From NCBI GenBank assembly GCA_032622095.1, contig CP136067.1, positions 196,316,052-196,380,051 of the forward strand: a stretch of DNA of 64,000 nucleotides. Direction: 5' to 3'. The DNA comes from Siphonodentalium dalli. Lineage: Eukaryota; Mollusca; Scaphopoda; Gadilida; Siphonodentaliidae. Position 1 is the stretch's first letter; each line of letters starts with the position of its first letter. Below, in pieces: positions 2,826 through 63,765 of this stretch. The position numbers and the translations under genes were made by a program. Below the pieces are notes generated by a model, which was not told the origin of the DNA, did not search any database, and was given only the letters and a program-made list of their open reading frames with translations.

Positions 2826-2913
2826 ACTAAATGTGTTTTGTTGTTGTTGTAACTGAAGGTCTGAAACCCTGAATGCATCTTTAACCATTTCTTTATTAAT
2901 ACTCATTGATGAC

Positions 2914-3130
2914 TACAGTATTGCTCTAAGTAACCGACTTCTTAACCGCTGCAGAATTATGGGTAACTTTTCAGGATTTAATCGGAAATATGGCTTGTTG
3001 CCATTCATCGGAAAGCTCTCCCCGAGAGCTTTCTGATGAATGGCAACAAGCCATATTTCCGACTAAATCATGAAAAGTTACCCATAATTCTGCTGTGGTT
3101 AAGAAGTCGATTACTTAGAGCATTACTGTA
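2914..3130. mobile_element. PalTA palindromic MITE
   Basis: TA flanks. Arms intact around a GCTCTCCCCGAGAGC apex. This copy has CTTCTTAACCGC and AAGAAGTCG variants near the ends, shared with copies at 4532 and 14448, marking a subfamily. Confidence 0.85.
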
Positions 3131-3450
3131 GTTCCCTTCGGACATGTTCAGATAATAAGTTCAGGTGGTAGAAACCACTGTCTATTCTTACAACAATTAT
3201 GTGGTAATGAGTATTTGGTTTATTGCTTATTTTGTCATGGATCTTAGTGCATCTGTACCACTAAGCTATCAAATACCTGAGTGGTATTATATATGTTACA
3301 TCTGAACACCATCTGAACTATTTAGAAAATGATGGTTTAATGATCTCAGGCCGAGAGCACCCTATGTCTGAATTCTATCTATCAACACACAGTGAGGACA
3401 CAGAGAGATTGATGACTAAATGATTACTTTAGTGATGCAGATTGCCATCA
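3131..3450. other. No recognised feature
   Basis: Spacer between two PalTA copies; nothing supported. Confidence 0.5.
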
Positions 3451-3667
3451 TACAGTAATGCCCTAAATAATTGACTCCTTAACCACAGCAGAATTATGGG
3501 TAACTTTTCATGATTTAGTCGGAAATATGGCTTGTTGCCATTCATCGGAAAGCTCTCAGTGAGAGCTTTCCAATGAATGGCAACAAGCCATATTTCCGAT
3601 TAAATCCTGAATAATTACACATAATTCTGCTATGGTTAGGGAGTCAATTATTTAGGGCATTACTGTA
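3451..3667. mobile_element. PalTA palindromic MITE
   Basis: TA flanks; full-length arms meeting at AGCTCTCAGTGAGAGCT. Confidence 0.85.
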
Positions 3668-4531: not shown

Positions 4532-4746
4532 TACAGTAATGCCCTAAGTGATCGACTCCTTAACCACAGGAATTATGGGTAACTTTTCAGGATTTAGTCA
4601 GAAATATGGCTTGTTGCCATTCATCGGAAAGCTCTCCCCAAGAGCTTTCCGATGAATGGCAACAAGCCATATTTCCGACTAAATCCTGAAAAGTTACCCA
4701 TAATTCTGCTGTGGTTAAGAAGTCGATCACTTAGAGCATTACTGTA
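4532..4746. mobile_element. PalTA palindromic MITE
   Basis: TA flanks, full-length. Both termini carry the TAAGTGATCGACT variant, so the two arms have changed together. Confidence 0.85.
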
Positions 4747-12171: not shown

Positions 12172-12834
12172 ACTCTACACTAAATCTGTCCATTTATTGG
12201 ACCATCTCCTATTATTACTCAACAGAAAATGAATGAATTTGAGCCACAGATTATTGCAAAATACACTCATTTACTTTATGAACAATGTAAAATAACATGG
12301 TGATTATAATGAAAATGAGATTATGGCTGGAGTCATTAACCCTTTACCCAACAGAACGGCCCTGTGCCAATGCATTCTCTTATATATGCGAGTCGACCAT
12401 AGGTCGCCTCGCATATATAAGAGAATGCATTGGCTTAACACATTAAAAATTATAAAATTGTTAAAGAATGTAAGAAAAAATGGTCGACTCGCATATATAA
12501 GAGAATGCATTGGCACAGGGAATAACTGTAACCATCACAATGTGGTCAATGAGCCGGTTCCAATGATATCCATATTTGTATGGTTTTATTGAGACAGACC
12601 CAAGATAATTTAGGCTGTTGCAGCTTTATTTGGCCGTTTTTGGCCGGTTTGTTGGGTAAAGGGTTAACTCATTTTCATTATAATTACCACGTTGTTTGCA
12701 TCATTCATAGAGCACATGAGTGTATTTTGCAATAATTCACGGCTCAAATTCATTTATTTATTGCATATATTCTGTGGAGTATATTATGAGATGGTCCCAT
12801 AAATGACACGATTTAGAGTACAGTACCCCTTTAA
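12172..12834. mobile_element. TTAA-4 element, interrupted
   Basis: TTAA flanks, tips AGGGGTACTCTACAC and CAGTACCCCT, with long inverted arms containing ATGAATTTGAGCC and its inverse. Host unit 1 at 11784-11790 (GTCTTTAAATG) is the empty TTAA site. The centre is split by TTAA-2. Confidence 0.85.
12336..12667. mobile_element. TTAA-2 element nested in TTAA-4
   Basis: Perfect TTAA at both ends. The second internal hairpin has lost its left arm: AAGAAAAAATGG runs directly into TCGACTCGCATATATAAG. The surrounding TTAA-4 arms match each other across it. Confidence 0.88.
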
Positions 12835-12909: not shown

Positions 12910-13280
12910 TTATACCTTTCAGTGCCAGGTCAGATTTTTGTATCAACCCAAATACCCTGTGCCAATGCATTCTCTTATATATGCGAGTCGACCATAGGTC
13001 GCCTCGCATATATAAGAGAATGCATTGGCCTAACAATTTTTCATCATTTGTTATTATTTTTACAATTTTAATAATTTTTTCTTATATTCTTTAACAGACT
13101 TATTTTGTAGGTTTAGTGCCAGGGAATCTTACGTTTTTCATGGGCATCAAAATTATTATTATGAATACTTGGTGATAGTTTTGAGTTATAACATGCCCCT
13201 AAGGTTTTTTTTTTTAGGGCCGATTTTACAGACCGTAAATTAGGGCCGATGAGATCGGCCCCTGGCACTGAAAGGGTTAA
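12910..13280. mobile_element. TTAA-3 element in host repeat O
   Basis: Tips CCTTTCAGTGCCAGG and CCTGGCACTGAAAGG, with right flank TTAA and left flank decayed to TTAT. Unit 1 (GTATTAAATAGCC, about 11870) shows the empty site. One CATTCTCTTATATATGCGAG hairpin lies near the left end and a GGGCCGATGAGATCGGCCC palindrome at the right. The right TTAA is followed by two extra AGGGTTAA copies. Confidence 0.85.
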
Positions 13281-18805: not shown

Positions 18806-18985
18806 TAAAGGGGGACTGTACACTAAATCCAGCCATTTATGGGACTATCTCCTATTATACTCAAAAGAATATATGCAACAAATGAATGAATTTGAGCCAT
18901 GGATGAGTGCAAAATACACGCATGTGCTCTATGACATCATGATAATTATAATGAAAATTAGTTTATTACATGATCCTACCCTTAT
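18806..18985. mobile_element. TTAA-4 left half
   Basis: AAAGGGGGACTGTACACTAAATCC through ATGAATGAATTTGAGCC to ATTATAATGAAAAT, ending at the element centre, where the sequence changes to the repeat that carries the GA-hairpins. Confidence 0.72.
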
Positions 18986-18991
18986 TCCATT

Positions 18992-19150
18992 CTATAAATA
19001 GAGGATCTCACATGAGTTTCTATTTTATACGGAATTTATCAACCGAGTTCACTAAATTCGATTTGAGCCGAGGTTTACCGAGGCTCAAATAGAATTTAGA
19101 GGACGAGGTTGATAAATTACGTATAAAATAGGACGAGTGTGAGATACCTT
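18992..19150. repeat. GA-hairpin, type D
   Basis: Palindrome with apex near GGTTTACC. Arms pair over TATTTTATACG, AATTTATCAAC, TAAATTC and TTTGAGC. Pairing is broken at five CGAG blocks (19044, 19069, 19079, 19104, 19134) and one TGAG (19013), all in the same direction on the plus strand. Block spacing is 31-25-10-25-30. Flank is ATAAATAGAGGATCTCAC. Confidence 0.8.
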
Positions 19151-19660
19151 TTATCACATGATCAAATAAACCCGAAGCAACGCGAATATTCATCGAAAAC
19201 AACAATCATAAACTACAGCGATCGCAAGTTATTAAACGCGCTGATATTAAACGTGTCTATTACCGATAATTATGAAACTGCTTTTATGGCCAAATTATGT
19301 GATAAATTGTGATATTAAACATTCGTTTAATAACAGGAAATAGTGCCAGGTGACCTTTGACTTCCGGGTTGTCGTCTGATTACATTCTATATGCTACATG
19401 TATGTCTCAATATACTATGTCTTCCAATATTTTTCCAACAAACTATAGTGAATAAAGAATTTGAAAAGATATGTCATTAAATATACACCATTAAATATGC
19501 CAAAGAGTCTTTATTTATCTGGGACTATTTCTTTACACGGGCAAACAATGCATAGTTACGTGAAACGTCATCTCATGCCTTATAGAAGCCGATGTTAGTT
19601 TCGTATCCCATTTGTTGATTTACGTATGTTTTGTCGAGGTTTTGGATCATGTAATAAATA
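19150..19660 (+). repeat. Body of repeat Q between two GA-hairpins
   Basis: Shares GTGCCAGGTGACCTTTGAC, AAAGAGTCTTTATTTATCTGG and TCGAGGTTTTGGATCATG with inverted copies at 27430-27790 and 28146-29290. No coding content. The element class is unknown. Confidence 0.6.
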
Positions 19661-19790
19661 GAATCTACAACTCGTCCCCAGTTTATAGTGGAATTTACAG
19701 AACTCATCCAGTAAATTAGGTCGTTTGTAAATTCCGCTATAAACTGGGGACTCGTTGTAGATCCTCTTATTTATTACTTGAGTCATACGA
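19660..19790. repeat. GA-hairpin, type D', centre deleted
   Basis: CAACTCGTCCCCAG in the left arm faces GGGGACTCGTTGTAG in the right, so the CTCG block again runs the same way in both arms while everything around it pairs. The inner part of the right arm is missing. Confidence 0.75.
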
Positions 19791-20444: not shown

Positions 20445-20887
20445 TTAACTCTTTCAGTGCCAGGGGCCGATCTCATCGGCCCTAATTTACGGTCTGTAAA
20501 ATCGGCCTAAAAAAAGTTTGTTTGTTTGTTTGTTTTTTTTTAAAAGATTTTTTTGGGTTGAATTTTTTTTGGGTATGCTTAAGCATGCTATAGCGAATTT
20601 AAAAACAAACTGGATAAAACCTTAGGGGCATGTTATAACTCAAAACTATCACCAAGTATTCGTAGTAATAATTTTGATGCCCATGAAAAACGTAAGATTC
20701 CCTGGCACTAAATCTACAAAATACTGAAAGAGTTAAAGAATATAAGAAAAAATTATTAAAATTGTTAGGCCAATGCATTCTCTTATATATGCGAGGCGAC
20801 CTATGGTCGACTTGCATATATAAGAGAATGCATTGGCACAGGGTATATGGGTTGATACAAAAATCGGACCTGGCACTGAAAGGGTTA
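20445..20887 (-). mobile_element. TTAA-3 element, full length
   Basis: TTAA on both sides, tips CTCTTTCAGTGCCAGG and CCTGGCACTGAAAGGG. Contains the GGGCCGATCTCATCGGCCC palindrome at the left, a T-rich GTTTGTTTG tract, the AAGCATGCTATAGCGAATTT block and one CATTCTCTTATATATGCGAG hairpin. Confidence 0.88.
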
Positions 20888-21090
20888 AATATATATATGA
20901 ACATCATCTTGTACATTATTGTATAAATTTGGGATACAAAATAAATATTGTTTACACCATAATTAACTCCTCTCATTAGGGCCCTGTGAATACCACCTTT
21001 TCACTTCAATCAATTTCGAATCGAATACCCATTCAGTAATTCAGAATTGAATAGAATATTTCATAGTTTTGGAACCTGCAATATATGAGA

Positions 21091-21210
21091 TACAGTAATG
21101 CCCTAAGTAATCGACTACTTAAACACAGCAGAATTATGGGTAACGTTTCAGGATTTAGTCGGAAATATGGCTTGTTGCCATTCATCGGAAAGCTCTAGGG
21201 CATTACTGTA
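21091..21210. mobile_element. PalTA with right arm deleted from the apex
   Basis: The complete left arm reaches AAAGCTCT and jumps straight to AGGGCATTACTG. TA flanks kept. Confidence 0.83.
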
Positions 21211-21375
21211 TAGATAGAACAACACAATTGTGTGAACATAATGACGTTATTGCACGAGTTTGTTCTGATGCGATGGTAAAACGAGAACCGGAGGTTAGAG
21301 TTTTACCTCGCGGCACGACAAACGAGTGCAATAACGTTAACATGTTCACACAACTGTGTTGTTCTATGTTTATTG
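21211..21375. repeat. GA-hairpin, type E
   Basis: Outer arms AGAACAACACA and TGTGTTGTTCT pair, then GTGTGAACAT and ACGTTATTGCA with their inverses. CGAG at 21255 faces CGAG at 21323, and CGAG at 21282 faces AGAG at 21297. Spacing 27-15-26. It begins exactly where the PalTA copy ends. Confidence 0.7.
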
Positions 21376-21701
21376 CACACTCTGAAGATTGCAGCTTGTA
21401 ACATACTAACATTTAGGTCGATATTGTTGTATTTAATTGAACAAAAGTGTGCTAATTGAACAAAAGTGTGCTTAATGTAGACTATACCCCATAATTTAGC
21501 GAAGATTTATGTGTTAAAGTTGATGTCACCAGTGACATTTTCGATGTAATAGGTTTGTATTGTTTAAGAACAATGCACATTTTTTTATTGAACGTCTTGA
21601 AAACTTCTGTATTTTGCTGTATTTCGCACAAAGAAGCCATTGGGTGTACAATAAAGGCCTTTACTACCAGGTATTTTATCTTTGCTGTTGCTATAACTAA
21701 A
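21376..21701. other. No recognised feature
   Basis: Spacer before the long foldback. Nothing supported apart from a tandem AATTGAACAAAAGTGTGCT doublet at about 21437. Confidence 0.5.
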
Positions 21702-23272
21702 TAGTACAGCGGCCAAACGCCAAAAGTGGTCGGGTACCCCTACCCACGGTAGAACAACTTTTTTTTAAGGAGAAATATATACTATAGACGAAAATGATAG
21801 TGAAAAATAACGGAATTGGTGGTGGCTATTCTCAAATCGACGATGAACGATACCCACCAGTGACTTTTCCCAGAAATTAACGATTTTGGTAAAGTGAGCC
21901 CTGCGGCTATGTCCTAAGTTATTAGCCCACATTGTAGGCGTCAAAATGACTACAGCATACCATATCTGTACCTAATATGCAAGAAGTGTTGGTTAATTTT
22001 GATTTTCGTGCCATTTGGAGCCGAAACATTTATTTTTTGTTGAAAAATCGCTCTTTTTCAAAAATATTATATTTTTCGAACATTATCATTCAAACGGATA
22101 TTGAAATAATATTGAAATATTTAGTCCATATGGTGTATTAGTTATCTGTCAGGCATATGAAGAAAGAAGTTAACAAAAATTTTGAACGGTTTGCGAGATA
22201 TTGGATTTTAGCTACCCCTCCCCCAAACACGTTTTTGGTCGAAAAAATACATATTTTTGATAATGACATTACAAACATTTTCGAATTGATCTGAATGGGA
22301 TCCAATATAAATCTTGTACTGAAAGTGTTGTCCAGAGATACCGTTTAATCGATTACAGATGTGTTCAGGCTTTCAGACCCCCAGTTACAACAACAACAAT
22401 TATTTTATTGATAACAGTTAATTTTGCATGCATTAACATCGATGTTAAGTACTAAAACCTTTGTTATAAACAACGCGACCAACTATATAACATATGGCTC
22501 AGTAGTTATCTGGAAAATACAAGTAGAAAGAATTTGACAGAAATTGAAAAATAACGGAATAGGTGGTGGCTATTGTCAAATCGACGATGAGCGATACCCT
22601 CCAGTGACTTTTTCCAGAAATGAACGATTTTCAGTATAATATTCATATTGGGTCCCATTCAGATCAATTCAAAAATGTTTGTAATGACATTATCAAAAAT
22701 ATGTATTTTTTTCGACCAAAAACGTGTTTGGGGGAGGGGTAGCTAAAATCCAATATCTCGCAAACCGTTCAAAATTGTTGTTAACTTCTTTCTTCATATG
22801 CTTTCTAGATAACTACTACACCATATGACCTAAATATTTTAATATTATTGCAATATACGTTTGGATGATAATGTTCGAAAAATAAAAAAAATTTGAAAAA
22901 GAGCGATTTTTCAACAAAAAATAAATGTTTCGGCTCCAAATGGCACGAAAATCAAAATTAACCAACACTTCTTGCATATTAGGTACAGATATGGTATGCT
23001 GTAGTCATTTTAACACCAACAGTGTGAGCAAATAACTTAGGACATAGCCGCAGGGCTCACTTTACCAAAATAGTTAATTTCTGGGAAAAGTCACTGGTGG
23101 GTATCGTTCATCGTCAATTTGAGAATAGCCACCACCAATTCCGTTATTTTTCACTATCATTTTCGTAAAGAGTATATATTTCTCCTCCAAAAAAAGTTAG
23201 TTTTAACTTGTTCTACCGTGGGTAGGGGTATCTCGAAAACTAGAGCTCTTTTTCGATTTGGCCGCTGCACTA
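21702..23272. mobile_element. Long foldback element, 1.57 kb
   Basis: Arms of about 635 bp (21702-22335 and 22635-23272) are inverse copies from TAGTACAGCGGCCAAA to GATTTGGCCGCTGCACTA. The loop is not simple: 22541-22633 repeats the left-arm segment GAAAAATAACGGAATNGGTG in direct orientation. No transposase frame. Target duplication unclear. Confidence 0.85.
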
Positions 23273-23789: not shown

Positions 23790-23974
23790 GAAAATAAATA
23801 GATAGAACCGCATGAGTGTCTGGATTTTGACGAAATTATCGCACGAGATTTGTTGGCGGAGCGGTACCTCGAGTGCGGGACGCAGTCCCGCACGAGAGGT
23901 ATCGCGTTCCGCCAACAAATCGAGTGCGATAATTCGTCAAAATCCAGACACTCATGCGGTTCTATTTTTATTAC
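23790..23974. repeat. GA-hairpin, type E'
   Basis: Almost perfect palindrome from AGAACCGCATGAGTGTCTGG to its inverse, apex at GGGACGCAGTCCC. Mismatch is concentrated at CGAG 23844 facing CGAG 23921, and CGAG 23870 facing CGAG 23893. Flanks AATAAATAGAT and TTTTTATTAC resemble those of types D and D'. Confidence 0.8.
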
Positions 23975-24676
23975 ATATCTCCGTATCATAGTAAGTTGAC
24001 TCACAATCGTACATCTCCGTTACAGAAAATGTGAATTTAATTGAGTTTTTAACGGCATTTTAGGGTTAACGCAACAATCAGACAGGGAGCCCGTCTATCC
24101 GCGAATGACCTTGATCCATCTTTAATGATGCGTTTGAAATTAAAATATGTGCCTCGACAAACATATTCTTGAAATGAAACTACTTGAATGAATCATCTCA
24201 TCGATTGATTGCTTATTGTTTCTTTATTGTCGTGATTGAAAAAGTAAAAATAGTAACGGCGAGAACCAGTCTAACAACACTGAATGAAATAGTTCCGTCG
24301 ACAGATTGCACTAGTGCGATTCTGAGAATTATCACACGCCTGGAAACTCGTGCGATCATGCGAATTACGTTGATAGATATGTAATAAATACACTATCTAC
24401 CATGTAGATCTCACAGTGCATGGTTGCTCAGAATGTTAAAAAAATACCAACATGTGTTTCACTTTCCCTGTTGCAAAATGTATGCAGATTGTCATAATTA
24501 TAAGCAATCAGCGTTGTTTTCGATGCATTTATCGGCATATAGAAGTGTCTGATGCCGAATTACGTACTGTATAATTTCGCGATGTACCAATAATTGTTAT
24601 TAGGGTGTAGTTACGCATATTATAAGTCATAAATTCTTACAAGTATCCTAATTTGAAAGGGTTAAGACATTGACCT
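23975..24676. other. No recognised feature
   Basis: Contains AGATATGTAATAAATACAC at about 24375, the inverse of the TTTATTACATAT just after the E' hairpin, hinting at a larger enclosing repeat. No gene supported. Confidence 0.45.
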
Positions 24677-27297: not shown

Positions 27298-27430
27298 TAT
27301 AGAGGATCTACATGTACAACGAGTCCCCAGTTTATAGTGGAATTTACTTTGGCGAGGTCCAGACCTAATTTACTGGATGAGTTCTGTAAATTCCACTATA
27401 AACTGGGGACTATTTATAGATTATATTTAT
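27298..27430. repeat. GA-hairpin, type D', left arm partly deleted
   Basis: CAACGAGTCCCCAGTTTATAG faces CTATAAACTGGGGAC. The inner blocks GGCGAGG and GGATGAG remain only in the right arm, and the outer right block is lost. Confidence 0.72.
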
Positions 27431-27790
27431 TATTATAATTTATTACTTAAAACATGCAATGACTTTTCATGTAACTTTGCGTTATTTGCCCGCATAAAGA
27501 AATAGTCCCAGATAAATAAAGACTCTTTGGCGTATTTAATGGTGTATATTTTATGAAATAACTTTTCAAACTCTTTATTCATTTTAGTTTGTTGGAGAAA
27601 TATTGGAAGCCATAGTATATTGAGACGTAGCATACGGAATGTTAACAAATGACAAACCGGAAGTCAAAGGTCACCTGGCACTATTTCCTATTAAATGAAT
27701 GTTTAATATCACAATTTATAGAATGGGTTTATTGAATGGAATAAGGGTAGGATCATGTAATAAAAAGTATTATTTAATTGGATTTAATTT
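27431..27790 (-). repeat. Repeat Q body
   Basis: Inverted relative to 19150-19660, and contains the unoccupied site GCCATAGTATATTGAGACG (about 27610) that is filled by a pearl-like element in the next copy. Ends at GGATCATGTAATAAA. Confidence 0.65.
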
Positions 27791-27974
27791 TTGGTATGTC
27801 TTTCCCATTATAATCAGGTACAGACAGGAAAGTCTACATGTATACTGTATTTCTTCTAAAGTTTGATATTCCTTTGGTACAACAGTCAGATGCAACCGAG
27901 ATTTAGTCCTCGGTATTTGCATTAAATACTTCCAAAATCAGTTCTTGGGAATCACTGTTTGTTAAATGAAAATT

Positions 27975-28145
27975 ATATAGAGGATCTACAACGAGTCCCC
28001 AGTTTATAGCGGAATTTACAAAACGAGTCCAGTAAATTAGGTCTGTACCGAGCCTTTGGCGAGGTTCAGACATAATTTACTGGACGAGTTTTGTAAATTC
28101 CACTATAAACTGGGGACGAGTTGTAGATTCTATTTATTACATGAT
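27975..28145. repeat. GA-hairpin, type D', complete
   Basis: The cleanest example. Arms pair across ATCTACAA, TCCCCAGTTTATAG, GGAATTTACAAAA and TCCAGTAAATTA. Six CGAG blocks start at 27992, 28024, 28049, 28060, 28085 and 28117, all on the plus strand, with symmetric spacing 32-25-11-25-32. The innermost stem is CCGAGCC-TTT-GGCGAGG. Confidence 0.88.
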
Positions 28146-29290
28146 CCAAAACCTTGACAAAACATACTTAAATCAACAAATGGGATACGAAACTAACATC
28201 GGCTTCTATAAGGCAAGCGACGACGTTTCACGTAATTATATGCGTTGTTTGCCCGCGTAAAGAAATAGTCCCAGATAAATAAAGACTCTTTGGCGTATTT
28301 AATGGCGTATAATTAATGACATAACTTTTCAAACTCATCATTCATTATAGTTTGTTGGAAGCCATAGTATTTTTATACGCCCTTTTGAAAAAAAGGCCGT
28401 ATTATAGTATTGGTCTGTCCGTCCGGGCGGGCGGGCGTCCGGGCGTCCGTTAACCTGTTGTCCGGATGATAACTTTAGTTAGAGTGAACCAAAATTTGGT
28501 ATGTGGGTTTATTAGCCGAAAAGTAAGTTCAAGTTTGAATTTGGGTTCCGCCCGCCAATTTTCACCGGAGTTATGCCCCTTATTTAACGTTTTTTGACTT
28601 AGAAAATCCTTGAAATTTGTTGTCCGGATGATAACTTTAGTATAGTTTATCTGAATGAATCCAAATTTGGTATATTACTTTCTCCCACCAAAAACACAGG
28701 TCAAGTTCGAACTTGGGTTCTGTCCGACCATTTTTGGCAGAGTTATGCCCCTTTTTCGACTCAGAAAATTCAGTTTTTCTTATGTTTTTTGGTTTCCGGA
28801 TGATATAACTCGATTTTGGAATGTTTATACACAAAACCCGTTTTTTTGTGGATTACATATATCAAAATACAGCTCAAGTCCGAATTTCGTTTTAATCCGA
28901 TAATTTTTGCGAGAGTTATGGCCCCTTTTTTTATGTAATTTGACTTAGAAAATCCCTGAAATTTGTTGTCCGGATGATAACTTTACTAGAGCTTATCGGA
29001 TTCAATGATAATTTGGTATATTACTTTCTCCCACCAAAACACAGGTCAAGTTCAAATTTGAGTTCCGTCCGCCAATTTTTACCAGAGTTATGCCCCTTTT
29101 TTTTACCAGTTTCCACCGACCCAAGAGAGGGCGTATATTGCACGCCCAGCGTAGCTCTTGTTGAGACGTAGCGTAGGGAATGTAATCAGACGACAAACCG
29201 GAAGTCAAAGGTCACCTGGCACTATTTCCTGTTCTTAAGCAATTTATTGAATGGGTTTATTGAATGGAATAAATGTAGGATCATGTAATA
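28146..29290 (-). repeat. Repeat Q body, interrupted
   Basis: Runs from CATGATCCAAAACCTTGAC to GCCATAGTAT, then resumes at TTGAGACGTAGC after the pearl-like element and continues to GGATCATGTAATAAA at about 29289. Confidence 0.65.
28371..29160 (+). mobile_element. Pearl-like (Helentron-type, non-autonomous) element, complete
   Basis: Comparison with the empty copy at 27610 fixes both ends. It starts TTTTATACGCCC, has a GTCCGTCCGGGCGGGCGGGC microsatellite, about four core units of roughly 165 bp (each with TTGTCCGGATGATAACTTTA, TTTGGTATATTACTTTC and GAGTTATGCCCC), then GGGCGTATAT and ends GTAGCTCTTG. There is no evident target duplication, as expected for rolling-circle elements. No Rep/helicase coding. 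Confidence 0.8.
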
Positions 29291-29429
29291 AATATTAATA
29301 AAAACTGGTAAAACAAAAAAATAAAAAAACGAGACAACTGTAAAGTCGGCAGGAAAAAAATGGGTCGGTCGGGAGAGGGGAAACAAACTATCTTTTAATT
29401 CTGGCCTGATATATTTCCAGTTAGTGTTG
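29291..29429. other. No recognised feature
   Basis: Short A-rich spacer. Confidence 0.4.
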
Positions 29430-29673: not shown

Positions 29674-29889
29674 TACAGTGATGCCCTAATTAATCGACTG
29701 CTTAACCACATAGAATTATGGGTAACTTTTCAGGATTTAGTCGGAAATATGGCTTGTTGCCATTCATTGGAAAGCTCTCCCCGAGGGCTTTCCGATGAAT
29801 GGCAACAAGCCATATTTCCGACTAAATCCTGAAAAGTTACCCATAATTCTGCTGTGGTTAAGGAGTTGATTAATTAGGGCATTACTGTA
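29674..29889. mobile_element. PalTA in tandem repeat R
   Basis: Full-length arms with TA flanks. Unit 2 of repeat R has the empty site GACATAGTTATG at about 31203. Confidence 0.88.
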
Positions 29890-31985: not shown

Positions 31986-32856
31986 GCAATGTACTCTTGT
32001 ACAGTCATGGGCAATCTAATGTCACTTGCCTGTCAATTTAATTTTGGCCTGAAGTTTCTTAGAATGTGCCGCCATCCACCTCCGCACCCATGCAACCTGC
32101 CTGGTTTATTTCCTATGTTTTATTCACTATCTTTGAATATGTTTTTTTGTTATTCTATTATTATTTTATTCTCTTGTTTTAATAGCATCTGTTTTCTCTT
32201 TGATGTAGTTATGATTTTTCAAGTTGGCAAATTTTTTGTTTCTGAAAAATGGCCAATATTAATTCAGAAATGGCCAAATTATTTTTCTACCTTGGTCATC
32301 ATGCTGTAACGTTGATCAGCTGACCACTGATTTTGAGTAGTGCTGTAAAATAACTACCTTTCTATACTAAATCTGTGACAAGCAAACAGGAATATGGTTA
32401 CACACCGGATTCCCAGCAGTATTTCTGATGGATGCGGTTATTGGTGAGATATACCACAGGAGACATCCACGGATAGCGGTCAATCAGACCCATCCTCTCC
32501 CTACAATCAGTGATAGTAATGCTGCACATCTGTCTCTGTCAAATTGGCACGGAATGTCGTATATTAAGATGCCGGTTCTTCATCATTTTAGACCTGATAA
32601 ATACATGTACTGTCAGACCTCCATATACCGATGGAAAATAACACTCAGGGCAGGAGTGAGTTTCGACATTGGGGAAAACTGGACATTAACAAAATGCTTG
32701 AGGTCAGTCCTCATGAGACGCCTGATAGAGTGTGATGCCAACTGTTTTATTAGCAACTCTCTAGTGATATCCCTAATGTGTTTTATGTGTAACCATAAGT
32801 GGGTGTAGGTGGCACGACACCATGATAAGTGACACCACACCTAGCACACTAAAATG
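31986..32856. other. Unassigned stretch with a 126-codon open frame
   Basis: An open frame at 32428-32808 (plus) includes NWHGMSYIKMPVLHHFRPDK. It shows no domain, signal or repeat that I recognise and abuts the minisatellite. Coding status is open; an exon or a remnant of an element are both possible. Confidence 0.3.
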
Positions 32857-35735
32857 ACAAAGTCAGAGTAATGCTGTGGCAGGTGGACCAAAAGGGAGAC
32901 AAAGTCAGAGTAATGCTCTGGCAGGTGGACCAAAAGGGAGACAAAGTCAGAGTAATGCACTGGCAGGTGGACCAAAAGGGAGACAAAGTCAGAGTAATGC
33001 TGTGGCAGGTGGACCAAAAGGGAGACAAAGTCAGAGTAATGCTCTGGCAGGTGGACCAAAAGGGAGACCAGGTCATATTAATGCACTGGTAGGTGGACCA
33101 AAAGGGAGACAAAGTCAGAGTAATGCACTGGCAGGTGGACCAAAAGGGAGACAAATTCAGAGTAATGCTCTGGCAGGTGGACCAAAAGGGAGACAGTCAG
33201 AGTAATGCTCTGGCAGGTGGACCAAAAGGGAGACAAAGTCAGAGTAATGCTCTGGCAGGTGGACCAAAAGGGAGACAAAGTCAGATTAATGCTGTGGCAG
33301 GTGGACCAAAAGGGAGACAAAGTCAAATTAATGCTGTGGCAGGTGGACCAAAAGGGAGACAAAGTCAGAGTAATGCACTGGCAGGTGAACCAAAAGGGAG
33401 ACAAAGTCAGAGTAATGCTGTGGCAGGTGGACCAAAAGGGAGACAGTCAGAGTAATGCTCTGGCAGGTGGACCAAAAGGGAGACAAAGTCAGTAATGCTC
33501 TGGCAGGTGGACCGAAAGGGAGACAAAGTCAGATTAATGCTGTGGCAGGTGGACCAAAAGGGAGACAAAGTCAGATTAATGCTCTGGCAGGTGGACCAAA
33601 AGGGAGACAAAGTCAGAGTAATGCACTGGCAGGTGAACCAACAGGGAGACAAAGTCAGAGTAATGCACTGGCAGGTGGACCAAAAGGTAGACAAAGTCAG
33701 AGTAATGCTGTGGCAGGTGGACCAAAAGGGAGACAAAGTCAGAGTAATGCTCTGGCAGGTGGACCAAAAGGGAGACCAGGTCATATCAATGCACTGGTAG
33801 GTGGACCAAAAGGGAGACAAAGTCAGAGTAATGCACTGGCAGGTGGACCAAAAGGGAGACAAATTCAGAGTAATGCTCTGGCAGGTGGACCAAAAGGGAG
33901 ACAAAGTCAGAGTAATGCTCTGGCAGGTGGACCAAAAGGGAGACAGTCAGAGTAATGCTCTGGCAGGTGGACCAAAAGGGAGACAAAGTCAGAGTAATGC
34001 TCTGGCAGGTGGACCAAAAGGGAGACAAAGTCAGATTAATGCTGTGGCAGGTGGACCAAAAGGGAGACAAAGTCAGATTAATGCTGTGGCAGGTGGACCA
34101 AAAGGGAGACAAAGTCAGAGTAATGCACTGGCAGGTGAACCAAAAGGGAGACAAAGTCAGAGTAATGCTGTGGCAGGTGGACCAAAAGGGAGACAGTCAG
34201 AGTAATGCTCTGGCAGGTGGACCAAAAGGGAGACCAGGTCATATTAATGCACTGGCAGGTGGACCAAAAGGGAGACAAATTCAGAGTAATGCTCTGGCAG
34301 GTGGACCGAAATGGAGACCAGGTCATATTAATGCACTGGTAGGTGGACCAAAAGGGAGACAAAGTCAGAGTAATGCACTGGTAGGTGGACCAAAAGGGAG
34401 ACAAAGTCATATTAATGCTCTGGCAGGTGGACCAAAAGGGAGACAAAGTCAGAGTAATGCTGTGGCAGGTGGACCAAAAGGGAGACAAAGTCAGAGTAAT
34501 GCTCTGGCAGGTGGACCAAAAGGGAGACCAGGTCATATTAATGCACTGGTAGGTGGACCAAAAGGGAGACAAAGTCAGAGTAATGCACTGGCAGGTGGAC
34601 CAAAAGGGAGACAAATTCAGAGTAATGCTCTGGCAGGTGGACCAAAAGGGAGACAAAGTCAGAGTAATGCTCTGGCAGGTGGACCAAAAGGGAGACAGTC
34701 AGAGTAATGCTCTGGCAGGTGGACCAAAAGGGAGACAAAGTCAGAGTAATGCTCTGGCAGGTGGACCAAAAGGGAGACAAAGTCAGATTAATGCTGTGGC
34801 AGGTGGACCAAAAGGGAGACAAAGTCAGATTAATGCTGTGGCAGGTGGACCAAAAGGGAGACAAAGTCAGAGTAATGCACTGGCAGGTGAACCAAAAGGG
34901 AGACAAAGTCAGAGTAATGCTGTGGCAGGTGGACCAAAAGGGAGACAGTCAGAGTAATGCTCTGGCAGGTGGACCAAAAGGGAGACAAAGTCAGAGTAAT
35001 GCTCTGGCAGGTGGACCAAAAGGGAGACAAAGTCAGATTAATGCTGTGGCAGGTGGACCAAAAGGGAGACAAAGTCAGATTAATGCTCTGGCAGGTGGAC
35101 CAAAAGGGAGACAAAGTCAGAGTAATGCACTGGCAGGTGAACCAAAAGGGAGACAAAGTCAGAGTAATGCACTGGTAGGTGGACCAAAAGGGAGACAAAG
35201 TCAGAGTAATGCACTGGCAGGTGGACCAAAAGGTAGACAAAGTCATATTAATGCTCTGGCAGGTGGACCAAAAGGGAGACAAAGTCAGAGTAATGCACTG
35301 GTAGGTGGACCAAAAGGGAGACAAAGTCAGAGTAATGCACTGGTAGGTGGACCAAAAGGGAGACAAAGTCAGAGTAATGCACTGGCAGGTGGACCAAAAG
35401 GGAGACAAAGTCAGAGTAATGCACTGGTAGGTGGACCAAAAGGGAGACAAAGTCAGCAATGCACTGGCAGGTGGACCAAAAGGGAGACAAAGTCAGAGTA
35501 ATGCACTGGCAGGTGGACCAAAAGGGAGACAAAGTCAGAGTAATGCACTGGCAGGTGGACCAAAAGGGAGACAAAGACCGAGTAATGCACTGGTAGGTGG
35601 ACCAAAAGGGAGACAAAGTCAGATTAATGCTCTGGCAGGTGGACCGAAATGGAGACAAAGTCAGAGTAATGCTCTGGCAGGTGGACCAAAAGGGAGACAA
35701 AGTCAGATTAATGCTCTGGCAGGTGGACCAAAAGT
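32857..35735 (+). repeat. 42-bp minisatellite, about 68 copies, with higher-order structure
   Basis: Unit: AAAGTCAGAGTAATGCTCTG plus GCAGGTGGACCAAAAGGGAG plus AC. Common variants are CAGATTAATG, CTGTGGC, CACTGGC, CACTGGT, AGACCAGGTCATATT and a 2-bp loss giving AGACAGTC. Landmark variants recur after 708 bp (17 units minus 6) and 752 bp (18 units minus 4) at 33093, 33801 and 34553. Frames are open on both strands because of the period; no protein is inferred. Confidence 0.95.
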
Positions 35736-36202
35736 CCTTTTAGAATGTCAACTGAGGAGAAAAGTAAAACGGCTTAAAGTATATTTGCCATGAGAATTTT
35801 TCACAGAATTTGTTTACATAGAGATTTTGGTTCGAAAGTTTCTATGTTCCAGGTATTCTAGAAATATTTCTGAATTACAGAACTCAACCTAGACCCAGAT
35901 ATTTTTAGATGTCGCTTTGAAAAAATGCTCATATTTGTGTGATTGCTTTGCCACCCGTTGTCTGTACTACATCGTACTGTTCTTCGTTCATTTGTCTGTC
36001 TTTTGTCCATATGGCTACTTCGTTTTCGAGATGATAGCTTTTGCTGGTTATGTGTAGATCTCCCATGGAAATCATACCAGTAAATCTGAAGACGACAGAC
36101 AGACCTCTAATTTTGGAAAACCCACTGTTCTTCATGTGGAATAAACATGGGGAATTATTGCAATAAAAAACAAAACATTTTACATCAAGAATAGAACCAA
36201 AC
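35736..36202. other. No recognised feature
   Basis: Post-array sequence, nothing supported. Confidence 0.45.
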
Positions 36203-36423
36203 TACAGCAATGCCCTAAATAATCGACTCCTTAACCACAGCAGAATTATGGGTAACTGTTCAGGATTTAGTCGGAAATATGGCTTGTTGCCATTCATTGG
36301 AAAGCTCTCACTGACTGAGAGCTTTCCGATGAATGGCAACAAGCCATATTTCCGACTAAATCCTGAAAAATTACCCATACTTCTGCTGTGGTTAAGGAGT
36401 CGATTATTTAGGGCATTACTGTA
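36203..36423. mobile_element. PalTA palindromic MITE
   Basis: Full-length, TA flanks. Apex enlarged to CTCTCACTGACTGAGAG. Confidence 0.85.
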
Positions 36424-36649
36424 GCTGATGTGCCAAACTTTGTCCGGGCCATTTAGGGATTTCTTTGTGATCGCCGCCATCTGGGCAGAATATACAGCAT
36501 CTGGACTTGTTTGTGGATGTTGCAAAATTGAGTCTGATGGATTGATCTACAAATTCAAAGTGACAACATTGAACAATACTGAGCGAACAACATTGAAAAG
36601 TATTAGGAGAAAGAAAAAAAACTATTGTTCCATGGTCCAGAAACATGCC

Positions 36650-38525: not shown

Positions 38526-38556
38526 CATGGGAGATCGTAGAAACTAAATTATCATA

Positions 38557-38773
38557 TACTGTAATGCTCTATGTAATCGACCCCTTAACCACAGCAGAAT
38601 TATGGGTAACTTTTCAGGATTTAGTCGGAAATATGGCTTGTTGCCATTCATTGGAAAGCTCTCGGGGAGAGCTTTCCGATGAATGGCAACAAGCCATATT
38701 TCCGAATAAATCCTGGAAAATTACCCATAATTCTGCTGTAGTCAAGGAGTCGATTATTTAAGGCATTACCGTA
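38557..38773. mobile_element. PalTA palindromic MITE
   Basis: Full-length, TA flanks, apex GCTCTCGGGGAGAGC. Confidence 0.85.
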
Positions 38774-38794
38774 TATTGTACAATGGTTAATTGT

Positions 38795-39681: not shown

Positions 39682-40487
39682 GAAAGCCTGAGTTTAGTGT
39701 TCCTGTCATTTGCAGAATGAGGTCCCCAGTGGGTGAATTTAGTGACGCTATCTCGCATAAAGGGCTAGCATCATTAAATTCACCCTCTGGGGACATCATT
39801 CTGCTTAGGCCTCATCTTTTTCTGAAAAATTTCTTTATTATAAGATTTCTGTAGAAACTTCTTCACATAGATTCTATTTATCACCTACACATAGATTCTA
39901 TTTATCACCTAATTAACCCACAAAATCAGCTTCATAATTATTGGTATTAGCGCGTGTGATGACGTCATGCCATTATTTAAATGACTTGCGATCGCTGAAG
40001 TTTATGATTGTTGTTTTCGATGAATACAGTTTCGCGTTGCTTCGCGTTTATTTGATCATGTGATAAAAGGTATCTCAAACTCGTTCTATTTTATACGTAA
40101 TTTGTCAACCTCGTCCACTACATTCTATTTGAGCCTCGGTAAACCTCGGCTCAAATTGAATTTAGTGAACTCGGTTGATAAATTCCGTATAAAATAGAAA
40201 CTCGTGTGAGATCCTCTATTTCTTTTTTAGTTTAGTTTCTCTATATCCCCAAATTGGCAGACGACACATTGCATAATCAAGGTTCCCAATGGGTGTACAT
40301 CACAATATTCACCATTGGGAACTTCAATATGAAGTCTATGTCTCCCTTAGCAGATGAGGTCTAAGCAGAATGCGGTCCCCAGAGGGTGAATTTGGTGATG
40401 ATAGCCCTTTATGTGGGGTAGCGTCACTAAATTCACCCTCTGGGGACCTCATTCTGCAAACGACAGGTACACTAAACCCAGGCTTCC
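39682..40487. mobile_element. hAT-1 long form, interrupted
   Basis: Ends AAGCCTGAGTTTAGTGTTCC and ACACTAAACCCAGGCTT, each followed inward by a GAATGAGGT hairpin. The middle contains TTAGTTTCTCTATATCCCC and CAATGGGTGTACATCAC. The copy at 49531 has the middle without the 330-bp insertion found here. Confidence 0.78.
39895..40226 (-). repeat. Repeat Q with GA-hairpin type D, inserted in hAT-1
   Basis: Interrupts CACATAGATTCTATTT / CTTTTTTAG. The hairpin at 40070-40215 has six CTCG blocks (40080, 40110, 40135, 40145, 40170, 40201), all in one direction, spacing 30-25-10-25-31. It is the inverse of the copy at 18992. Confidence 0.82.
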
Positions 40488-45395: not shown

Positions 45396-46201
45396 TTATT
45401 GGTGTAACCAAAGTTAATCGCCATTCTGGTGCTGTACTATTCATATGTCGTCATTCTGAAGCCATACTGTTCCCCGTGTCCTGAAAAATTAGGAAATAAA
45501 TCAATCCTACATGATTATATGCTGGGAATCCAGGTAAGATTATAACCCCCTGTCTGTTGGCTGGCAGCACATTATAGGATATTTTCTCACCTCCATTTCT
45601 GAAGGCAGGCCTCCTGGCATAAACCTACATCTGTAATTAGTTGTTGTGTCCTCTGCCAAACATCATGTTTTCTCCATGGTTTTGTGTATTATTACTCAGA
45701 TAGTTTAATTATGAGCTCTGACTAGATTGTGGTAACACTAATTAGTCTTGTCCTAGCATCTTGACTTGATTATCAGCGGTGTTGGTACCCATTGGTATCA
45801 AAGTCAGTGGGGATTCTAGACACATGCGAGTCCTTCTTGTAAACTTCATTACTCACAGGTCTCCGAATAGAACTCTACAAAAAAGTTATTCCAAGCTTGT
45901 ATCCAATCTACCCGAATGTTATTCCAAGCTTGTATCCAATCTACCCGATTATCATGCTGCAGGATGGGATACTTCTGTGTTTGTTTTCACGATGCAACAT
46001 ATTAACTACCCGGAGTATATCACATATTATTTGAGACTTTATAAAACATCGAGTGTATTTATATTAACCGATTCACTGCAATAACGTCCGTTTAAACTAT
46101 TACGCATGTAAAAGTGCATGCCTTATGATCTGTAGGTATTATGGACCTACTTCTTCACACTAGCAGTAGGCCATAATTCATGACTGGAACTCAGAGATTG
46201 G
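45396..46201. other. Unassigned; contains a 35-bp duplication
   Basis: GTTATTCCAAGCTTGTATCC..AATCTACCCGA occurs twice in tandem at 45886 and 45918. Otherwise nothing supported. Confidence 0.5.
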
Positions 46202-46419
46202 TACAGTAATGCACTAAATAATCAACTCCTTAACCACAGCATAATTATGGGTAATTTTTTCCGGATTTAGTCGGAAATATGGCTTGTTGCCATTCATCGG
46301 AAAGCTCTCATTGAGAGCTTTCCGATGAATGGCAACAAGCCATATTTCTGACTAAATCCTGAAAAATTACCCATAATTCTGCTGTGGTTAAGGAGTTGAT
46401 TATTTAGGGCATTACTGTA
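46202..46419. mobile_element. PalTA palindromic MITE
   Basis: Full-length, TA flanks, apex CTCTCATTGAGAG. Confidence 0.85.
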
Positions 46420-47144
46420 CATCAGAATAACTGTATCTCGAAGTTTCAAACTGTGTGTGATGTTCCATGATTGTGAACACTAATATAGCCTTTCAACTGA
46501 GTCAGTTTTATGATTCTTGTGATATTCTGGTTATATTTTTCCTCTGGACAATAACGTCAAAAGCCCACCACACAACGTCATAACATCATTTAGCATCGAA
46601 TAGGTAAAAGCCATACATCTATCCCTCATGTTAGGCAGACATGTTAACTCTCATAATTTCGGCGATTCCACACCCCATCTCCCGCCCTCACGAATGTCAC
46701 GACTCAAATCTCACAATTTAAGCTGCCAAATCCCAGTCATCATTACAGTTAAATACAATGTTTAAACTAGCTGTAGTTTGTGTTAATTAGTGCAAAGCAA
46801 GTTGGGCATAAGAGCAGGTGGAACCCATCAACAAGGCATGAAGTGTAATTTGCAAATAGACTAATAGACAAATAGAGTAAGTACAGGCCCCTGTGTGCAC
46901 TTCAGGCACATTACAGACAATTCATATTCTTGTATATATATATACATAGAATGTTATAGAAAACTACTGAGTATTTCTGAACAAATAAGGTATCAACTTG
47001 TTTTAAAAATAAACAAGCATATGCCGTAACAGTCAAAATGCTATGTTTTATGTCAGTTCCTCATATATTATGTTTTGGAGTGTTTGCACATTTTGAATGC
47101 GTGGTACTCACCAACTTCGAAACCACGTGATTCCTCACTGTGCT
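46420..47144. other. No recognised feature
   Basis: A short TATATATATATACATA tract at 46936 only. Confidence 0.45.
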
Positions 47145-49530: not shown

Positions 49531-49920
49531 AGCAGGCTAGCATCACCAAATTCACCGTCTAGGGACCTCATTCTGCTTAGACCTCATCTTCTCTGAAAGT
49601 TTCTTTATTATTTTTATATAGAAACTTCTTCACATAGATTCCATTTCTTTTTTAGTTTAGTTTCTCTATTTCCCCAAATTGGCAGACGACATTGCATAAT
49701 TGAGGTTCCCAATGGGTGTACAATCACTGTACATCAGAATATTCACCATTTGGGAACTTCAATCTGAGTCTATGTCTCCCATAGCAGATGAGGCCATGCA
49801 GAATGAGGTCCCCTGAGGGTGAATTGAGTGATGCTAGCCCGCTATGCGGGATAGCATCACTAAATTCACCCTCTGGGGACCTCATTCTGCAAATGACAGG
49901 CACACTCAACTCAGGCTTCT
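49531..49920. mobile_element. hAT-1 long form, left end missing
   Basis: Starts inside the first hairpin (GCAGGCTAGCATCACCAAAT), has the uninterrupted middle CACATAGATTCCATTTC, and ends AAATGACAGGCACACTCAAC..CAGGCTT. Confidence 0.78.
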
Positions 49921-51202: not shown

Positions 51203-51404
51203 TACAATCGACTCCTTAACCACAGCAGAATTATGGGTAATTTTTCAGGATTTAGTCGGAAATATGGCTTGTTGCCATTCATCGGAAAGCTCTCAGTGAG
51301 AGCTTTCCGATGAATGGCAACAAGCCATATTTCCGACTAAATCCTGAAAAGTTACCCATAATTCTGCTGTGGTTAAGGAGTCGATTAATTAGAGCATTAC
51401 TGTA
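51203..51404. mobile_element. PalTA with damaged left tip
   Basis: The left end reads TACAATCGACTCC, missing about 16 bp after CA. Right end AGAGCATTACTG plus TA. Arms otherwise intact. Confidence 0.8.
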
Positions 51405-52169: not shown

Positions 52170-52385
52170 TACAGTAATGCCCTAAATAATCGACTCCTTA
52201 ACCACAGCAAAATTATGGGTAATTTTTCAGGATTTTGTCAGAAATATGGCTTGTTGCCATTCGTCAGAAAGCTCTCACTGAGAGCTTTCCAATGAATGGC
52301 AACAAACCATATTTCCGACTAAATCCTGAAAAATTATCTATAATTCTGCTGTGGTTAAGAAGTCGATTATAAGGGCATTACTGTA
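52170..52385. mobile_element. PalTA palindromic MITE
   Basis: Full-length, TA flanks. The right arm has lost a few bases (GATTATAAGGGCATT). Confidence 0.84.
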
Positions 52386-54791: not shown

Positions 54792-55329
54792 TTAACCCTT
54801 TACCCAACAAACCGGCCAAAACCGGCCAAATAAAGCTTCAACAGCCTAAAATATCTTCGGTCTGTCTCAATAGAACCATACAAATATGGATATCATTGGA
54901 ACCGGCTCCTTGACCACATTGTGATAGTTACAGTTATACCCTGTGCCAATGCATTCTCTTATATATGCGAGTCGACCATAGGTCGCCTCGCATATATAAG
55001 AGAATGCATTGGCCTAACAATTTTTCATCATTTGTTATTATTTTTTACAATTTTTTACAATTTTAATAATTTTTTTATTATATTCTTTAACAGACTTATT
55101 TTGTAGGTTTAGTGCCAGGGAATCTTACGTTTTTCATGGGCATCAAAATTATTACTATGAATACTTGGTAATAGTTTTGAGTTATAACATGCACCTAAGG
55201 TTTTAACCAGTTTGTTTTTAAATTCGCTATAGCATGCTTAAGCATACCCAAAAAAAATTCAACCCAAAAATTTTTTACAGACCGAAAATTAGGGCCGATG
55301 AGATCGGCCCCTGGCACTGAAAGGGTTAA
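54792..55329. mobile_element. Chimeric TTAA element: TTAA-2 left half, TTAA-3 right half
   Basis: Left end TTAA plus CCCTTTACCCAACA and GGCCAAAACCGGCC (TTAA-2). After the shared hairpin, sequence continues as GGCCTAACAATTTTTCATC, GTGCCAGGGAATCTTACG and GGGCCGATGAGATCGGCCCC, ending CTGAAAGGG plus TTAA (TTAA-3). The switch lies in the common hairpin. Confidence 0.88.
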
Positions 55330-63362: not shown

Positions 63363-63765
63363 TTAACCCTTTACCCAACAAACCGGCCAAAACCGGCCAA
63401 ATAAAGCTTCAACAGCCTAAAATATCTTCGGTCTGTCTCAATAGAACCATACAATTATGGATATCATTGGAACCGGCTCCTTGACCACATTGTGATAGTT
63501 ACAGTTATGCCCTGTGCCAATGCATTCTCTTATATATGCGAGTCGACCATAGGTCGCCTCGCATATATAAGAGAATGCATTGGACTAAAAAAAAATCTTT
63601 TTTTAACACTTTTTACCATTTTTTTTCTTAGATTCTTTAACAATTTTATAATTTTTAATGTGTTAAGCCAATGCATTCTCTTATATATGCGAGGCGACCT
63701 ATGGTCGACTCGCATATATAAGAGAATGCATTGGCACAGGGCCCTTCTGTTGGGTAAAGGGTTAA
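63363..63765. mobile_element. TTAA-2 element, full length
   Basis: Perfect TTAA on both sides, tips CCCTTTACCCAACA and TGTTGGGTAAAGGG. Both hairpins intact. The best reference copy for the family in this window. Sequence after it (63766-64000) shows nothing further. Confidence 0.92.

Follow-up and report, generated by a model that had tools for sequence, protein, structure and literature searches.

The closest described systems are eukaryotic rolling-circle transposons. Helitron2 elements carry two short asymmetric terminal inverted repeats (ATIRs), the first at the 5′ end and the second directly preceding the 3′ hairpin, and in the portions of the source cited here (Bao and Jurka 2013, PMC3627910) the 3′ repeat lies ~20–30 bp from the 3′ end, Helitron-1N1_CRe inserts after TTTT without target duplication, and CRe-1, 2, and 3 have target duplications of ~7–19 bp. 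As excerpted, the non-autonomous Helentrons HINE/DINE-1 of mites and flies (PMC4067079) and the oyster element Cg_HINE (PMC7492417) are non-coding and combine sub-terminal inverted repeats with a short 3′ palindrome and T-rich targets; in the mite HINE this palindrome measures 5–10 bp and lies ~8–35 bp from the 3′ end. Canonical Helitrons such as Helraiser begin with TC, end with CTRR, insert between A and T without target duplication, and terminate in a 3′ hairpin, a 19-bp palindrome with a tolerant stem (excerpts of PMC4778049 and PMC5876387). When the stem of the Helraiser terminator was replaced and the loop kept, ~90% of the activity remained, and constructs with an altered loop and closing pair, or with the entire hairpin exchanged, behaved like a deletion, according to the part of PMC4778049 drawn on here. 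The non-canonical Helitrons of Fusarium also have asymmetric terminal inverted repeats, the 3′ one 38–51 bp from the end, with TNAT|T as the insertion site of FoHeli1 and 2 (PMC5148889, in part). The experiments described in these sources on recognition of the 3′ end by a Helitron-like transposase used one 19-bp hairpin.

The window, by which we mean the whole 64,000-nucleotide stretch of Siphonodentalium dalli DNA that was analyzed, contains a much longer hairpin at 27975–28145, interrupted by CGAG blocks that face themselves, together with six relatives. We read it, with a probability of roughly 0.6, as the 3′-terminal hairpin of a group of rolling-circle transposons resembling Helitron2/Helentron, which are non-coding and short (~0.3–0.6 kb when inserts are discounted). 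The likeness to Helitron2 lies in the asymmetric repeats, the 5′ T, and insertion without target duplication as for Helitron-1N1_CRe. Helitron2 elements are expected to have an ATIR of 8–15 bp located 0–2 bp from the 5′ end and its inverted copy directly before the 3′ hairpin; here, the best interior match to the 5′ end has this location in 7/7 copies. The empty sites of II_1 and II_2 and the junctions of six copies and of I_B agree with T-rich insertion without target duplication, a 3–5 bp duplication being possible for the two family II copies. Unlike in Helitron2 as excerpted, the space between the inner repeat and the 3′ end amounts to 110–168 bases and is filled by the CGAG hairpin, and neither insertion after TTTT nor target duplications of the CRe type are seen. 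The features listed above for HINE/DINE-1 and Cg_HINE recur here, whereas the short 3′ palindrome does not; in its place, the paired stem reaches the element end and comprises ~65 pairs in I_B but 82 in III (range ~65–80). With ~155–175 bases, the hairpin is ~3–8 times longer than the 3′ region given for Helitron2 and HINE in the cited portions. Canonical Helitrons are matched in the apparent lack of target duplication, insertion compatible with A|T, and a 3′ hairpin that would act as a terminator with a tolerant stem, but the termini here read TTTAT and mostly TCTA. The Fusarium elements differ in the position of the 3′ inverted repeat, and the excerpted text of PMC5148889 describes no long block-bearing hairpin. 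The class is a familiar one. The block-bearing giant hairpin was not met in the literature searched (mostly outside subscription journals), and as judged by sequence comparison it is a real and conserved feature.

The CGAG hairpin and its relatives in the window

The segment 27975–28145 folds into a single long hairpin with three self-facing CGAG/CGAG pairs (Table 1). Folded with RNA parameters, 27960–28160 reaches a minimum free energy of −105.9 kcal/mol, whereas shuffled sequences average −38.0 (z = −17.6; 0/200 shuffles equally good), and DNA parameters give −61.0 (z = −15.5 against shuffles). The sequence-only reading that drew attention to this segment had listed six CGAG in the same orientation with the spacing 32-25-11-25-32, which is borne out by the block coordinates. 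It had also held that the arms pair everywhere except at CGAG; the blocks do face themselves, and 3/3 of the 2×2 internal loops are CGAG opposite CGAG, but the arms contain three additional single mismatches (GCG/CAC, AGG/CAT, and GTA/TTC).

Table 1. Positions in the window of the reported hairpin, the element copies, and two palindromic repeats.
Feature	Position	Strand	Remarks
Reported hairpin	27975–28145	+	CGAG strand of the I_B terminal hairpin; based on folds
CGAG block 1	27992–27995	+	opposite 28117–28120
CGAG block 2	28024–28027	+	opposite 28085–28088
CGAG block 3	28049–28052	+	opposite 28060–28063
CGAG block 3′	28060–28063	+	opposite 28049–28052
CGAG block 2′	28085–28088	+	opposite 28024–28027
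CGAG block 1′	28117–28120	+	opposite 27992–27995
Copy I_B	27978–29292	− (Helitron orientation)	hairpin ~27978–28137; body to 28371; rest of body and 5′ end 29160–29292
I_B internal (3′) ATIR	28133–28147	−	GGATCATGTAATAAA; adjoins hairpin
I_B 5′ ATIR	29278–29292	+	GGATCATGTAATAAA on +; TTTATTACATGATCC in Helitron orientation
Copy I_A	27300–27764	−	465 bp; hairpin decayed, partly deleted
Copy I_C	18962–19768	+	807 bp including nested II_1; hairpin with internal deletion
Copy II_1	18999–19306	−	308 bp, inside I_C; hairpin ~18999–19160
Copy II_2	39901–40218	+	318 bp; hairpin ~40055–40218, three block pairs
Copy III	23799–24388	−	590 bp; hairpin ~23799–23973
Copy IV	21211–21655	−	445 bp; hairpin ~21211–21370; far end placed from the inverted repeat alone
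TACAGTAATGCCC palindrome	119–333, 2912–3132, 3451–3667, 4532–4746, 29674–29889, 36202–36424, 38554–38776, 46201–46420, 51206–51386, 52170–52385, others		
GCCAATGCATTCTC palindrome	1756–1824, 1903–1971, 12366–12434, 12961–13029, 20769–20837, 54945–55013, 63517–63583, 63667–63735		

Seven related hairpins belonging to four families occur in the window, and six of them have at least one self-facing pair. They comprise the reported hairpin of I_B, the damaged hairpins of I_A and I_C from the same family, and those of II_1, II_2, III, and IV. Self-comparison of the window gave 53 self-palindromes that include the hairpins of II_1, II_2, III, IV, and I_C; those of I_B and I_A are not among the 53 and were found by other alignments. 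Each of I_B, II_1, II_2, III, and IV folds by itself as one long hairpin, I_C retains one intact block pair, and I_A retains none. The blocks of II_1 and II_2 are spaced 31-25-10-25-30, and II_1 has three block pairs, one of which is TGAG/CGAG. In III, the spacing is 26-23-28 with a TGAG 31 bases further out; two pairs are self-facing and the outer one, TGAG/CTCA, is paired. IV has three CGAG spaced 27 and then 41 bases, its fourth block being AGAG, so that one block pair is exact and the other is CGAG/AGAG. The expectation that CGAG would stay unflipped is thereby upheld for the greater part: I_B, II_1, II_2, III, and IV together have 14 block-pair positions, of which 11 read CGAG/CGAG exactly; TGAG/CGAG and CGAG/AGAG occur once each, whereas the outermost pair of III has flipped to the paired form.

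Poly-A aside, CGAG alone among 120 tetramer classes shows more than one self-facing pair. When identical facing tetramers between pairing arms were counted across the window, CGAG gave 7 pairs, which are spread over five hairpins; AAAA, a low-complexity tetramer, gave 42, ACAA and CAAA a single pair each, and the remaining classes 0; a stricter scan gave 7 for CGAG, 16 for AAAA, and 1 each for CAAA, ATTA, and ACAA. The seven CGAG-bearing hairpins contain 16 symmetric 2×2 loops, 12 of them with identical facing 4-mers, and all 12 are CGAG/CGAG. Among the remaining 48 palindromes, which are not all independent as some are nested in one another, there are 12 such loops, and a single one of these (ATTT) has identical facing 4-mers.

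Identical blocks in the same orientation would also arise if the inner palindromes were separate elements that had inserted at CGAG and duplicated a 4-bp target, since target duplications flank a palindrome in just this orientation. Such an origin would require the same nested events, at similar spacings, in families with different arms, and a BLAST search of the window with the inner segments of I_B, II_2, III, and IV gave no matches beyond the known hairpins. We regard it as extremely improbable.

Viral contigs were searched for the same features. The exact hairpin piece and an 18-mer spanning the ATIR and its flank each had 0 matches there, whereas the foot of the hairpin plus block 1 matched six viral loci, five of them with one CGAG each. 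Among the spacing-pattern matches listed (at least 121 and at least 120 loci), at most 13/21 arm positions are complementary (mean 6.0), and the spacing alone therefore brings no hairpin. The sixth locus matched by the hairpin foot, on a viral contig of 58% G+C that is dense in open frames, contains five CGAG and folds with −76.1 kcal/mol; it was rejected as a relative, as a scan found self-facing blocks absent. Parvovirus-like terminal hairpins were also considered for the mismatched palindromic ends and were set aside by reasoning because the hairpin is present at one end only and the bodies are 0.3–0.6 kb long and non-coding.

Element ends and insertion sites

The element copies were oriented by their inverted repeats, independently of the blocks. 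With the hairpin placed 3′, family I reads TTTATTACATGATCC...CTCTA (CTCTT at the end of I_C), family II TTTATCACAT or TTTATCACCT...CTCTA, III TTTATTACATATC...ATCTA, and IV TTTATTGTACAC...ATCTA. A TTTAT start is present in 6/6 delimited copies, and TCTA followed by T at the end in 5/6. I_B, which ends CTCTA|T, also fits; BLAST of its two pieces against I_A and I_C indicates that it is complete and split by a 788-bp insertion at 28372–29159. The first 14 bases were compared, inverted, with the interior of each element, and in 7/7 copies the highest score falls directly inside the hairpin: 14/14 in I_B (where it is the repeat beside the hairpin), I_C, and III, 12/14 in II_1 and IV, 11/14 in II_2, and 10/14 in the decayed I_A; the next-best matches within the elements score 8–11. 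When the first 60 bases were folded with DNA parameters, the minimum-energy structure contained a 5′ hairpin of the Helitron2 kind, which involves the ATIR, in 2/7 sequences (I_A and IV). An arrangement of two inverted hairpins bracketing one element was ruled out, the second hairpin being that of II_1, nested in I_C.

For both insertions of family II, a site lacking the element can be compared. I_A preserves the uninterrupted site for II_1 near 27719 (CACAATTTATAG), and a paralogous empty site for II_2 lies within 49600–49690 (GATTCCATTTCTTT). In sequence, both fit insertion at A|T with nothing duplicated, and because the element start and the target share TTT, a target duplication of 3–5 bp is possible for both. 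The base preceding the 5′ end is A in 4/7 copies (II_1, II_2, III, and I_B) and T, G, and C in the others, and strict A|T targeting is therefore not established.

At the 5′ end of II_2, 24 bp are duplicated in tandem (39864–39911, with one copy at 39864 and the other at 39888). The duplication contains target sequence together with the first bases of the element and may have been left by the insertion event.

Block retention and possible recognition of the hairpin

The blocks have changed less than the arms in which they are embedded. Between I_B and II_2, the block bases are identical at 24/24 positions and the paired arm columns at 73/114 (Fisher p = 1e-4); the corresponding values are 23/24 and 74/114 for I_B and II_1 (p = 0.002) and 14/16 and 82/142 for III and IV (p = 0.03), the p-values treating alignment columns as independent. 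Arm identity at paired columns is thus 58–65% (64–65% for I versus II) against 88–100% for blocks, and as the families are related to each other, these are few independent comparisons. Both sides have changed in 11/65 pairs (I/II) and 12/82 pairs (III/IV). Pairs broken in the alignments number 10–12/65 (I/II) and 23/82 (III/IV), in part reflecting misaligned arms because I_B, II_1, II_2, III, and IV each fold whole by themselves. Against constancy of the blocks stand the paired outer TGAG/CTCA of III, the one decayed block of IV, and the TGAG variants, which resemble CpG decay. The retention of the blocks by related elements despite changed arms suggests that the blocks matter for element movement, and their recurrence at matched positions across families with different arms agrees with the earlier view that random decay of a palindrome is not the cause.

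Inheritance without function would be another source of shared blocks: an ancestral palindrome may by chance have had unflipped blocks, which all families then inherited. The families have flanks in common and are likely to be related, a single window holds few independent lineages, and some of the blocks have changed from C to T at CpG, a pattern also expected of neutral decay. Under this explanation, it is hard to see how arms could fall to their present identity with the blocks still nearly intact, or how chance could have put several identical blocks at matched positions in each hairpin, and we consider it distinctly unlikely.

The blocks could instead be double-stranded binding sites, comparable to iterons, that recur every ~25–32 bp in one orientation and are read on unfolded DNA. 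Sites of this kind cannot be palindromic and would therefore appear as mismatches in a hairpin whose remaining sequence is selected to pair. The single orientation of the six CGAG agrees with such sites, as do the outer spacings of 30–32, which correspond to 2.9–3.05 turns of B-DNA (2.4–2.7 turns for the inner spacings of 25–28), although these helical-phase figures are few. Exact opposition is not predicted, yet it is found at 11/14 block positions, and a single site in each arm, opposite CTCG, would do equally well. Binding of this type appears unlikely.

In the transposon reading that we prefer, a RepHel transposase from an autonomous relative would peel off one strand, on which the long hairpin would form, stall the helicase, and mark the 3′ cut. 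The transposase may read the hairpin as a structure whose read-out points would be the four-base bubbles ~31 and 26 bases apart, and the stem sequence would hence be free to drift and the blocks would not. The hairpin would likely act as a pause or termination signal, with its blocks read by the transposase. If a terminator is read via its unpaired features and not its stem, drifting arms with fixed blocks would therefore be expected. The surmise that the hairpin is a transposon end agrees with its position at the element end, where it would plausibly act as folded single-stranded DNA. Subterminal hairpins of IS200/IS605 and integron attC sites are likewise single-stranded and recognized via unpaired or mismatched positions while their stems vary, although their enzymes and anatomy differ from those of the present elements. 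Pfam scanning of 10 of the 48 window ORFs (at least 110 aa) found a Rep/helicase domain in none and RVT_1 with zf-RVT in one.

More tentatively, the elements may form a group of their own among eukaryotic rolling-circle transposons, defined by a giant 3′ hairpin with evenly spaced invariant tandem mismatches that is read as a structure with a free stem. Within that possible grouping, the terminator code would be the mismatched bubbles (self-facing CGAG or CTCG) and not the sequence of the stem or loop.

The tandem sheared G.A motif is (5′-YGAR-3′)2, that is, Y-GA-R opposite itself, and the CGAG/CGAG loops (12/16 of the 2×2 loops) have this sequence. In 6/6 delimited copies, CTCG is found on the strand equivalent to the Helitron top strand. 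In vitro, the Helraiser junction is formed and cleaved on the top strand only, according to the portion of PMC5876387 cited here; if this strand rule holds, the transposed strand would therefore contain C.T/T.C bubbles, with the G.A pairs on its complement. RNA parameters favor the CGAG strand in 7/7 hairpins, by 0.9 to 15.9 kcal/mol, and DNA parameters favor it in 4/7, the reported hairpin not being among them (−60.9 versus −61.2). As the Helitron-convention strand reads CTCG and the DNA energies favor CGAG in 4/7 only, tandem sheared G.A pairing is at most a possible working state.

The uniform preference of RNA parameters for the CGAG strand would suit a transcript in which this strand adopts a sheared G.A fold, be it a small-RNA precursor, a protein-binding RNA, or a ribozyme; an RNA-binding or self-cleaving fold had been suggested from the sequence. 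This suggestion found no support, as no Rfam model matches at its gathering score in the window. Four sub-threshold matches were obtained at 27700–28400, and those over the hairpin are to two microRNA models, with weak scores of 37.4 bits (cut-off 195) and 25.5 bits (cut-off 93). Location at the ends of mobile elements is also not needed by an RNA gene, and a function as RNA seems very unlikely.

As a natural family with drifted stems and fixed mismatched blocks, these elements hint at what the enzyme of the preferred transposon reading may recognize. Self-facing CGAG ~31 and 26 bases apart constitute a searchable signature, and elements of this kind would likely be missed by programs tuned to TC...CTRR ends.

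Other repeats in the window

The 788-bp insert in I_B resembles a canonical HINE, and its 3′ palindrome is no more than a short one. It contains the 5′ sub-terminal repeat ATACGCCC with an inverted copy nearby, a GTCC-type microsatellite, and the repeat GGGCGTATA ~38 bases from its 3′ end (11/16 match). GTCC-like microsatellites are described for the oyster Cg_HINE in the portion of PMC7492417 cited here. The resemblance of the repeats to those described in oysters would suit an animal source, perhaps a mollusc, and the LINE-type frame, MITE-like palindromes, and minisatellites of the window look eukaryotic.

Two palindromic repeats are dispersed through the window (Table 1). The first, TACAGTAATGCCC..., is a nearly perfect, MITE-like palindrome of ~180–223 bp, present in many copies and without self-facing CGAG; a partial copy (~21085–21200) abuts element IV at 21200–21211. 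The second, GCCAATGCATTCTC..., measures 67–69 bp and forms inverted pairs in places (1750–1977). Between IV and III lies an inverted repeat of ~574 bp (21753–22324 and 22629–23202), 93.6% identical with a 304-bp spacer.

An open frame at 24816–26588 matches RVT_1, at 27.8 bits just under the Pfam cut-off of 29.6, together with zf-RVT and is a LINE-type fragment. A long minisatellite at 32850–35790 is open in several frames and consists of repeats such as MLWQVDQKGDKVR and GGPKGRQSQSNA.
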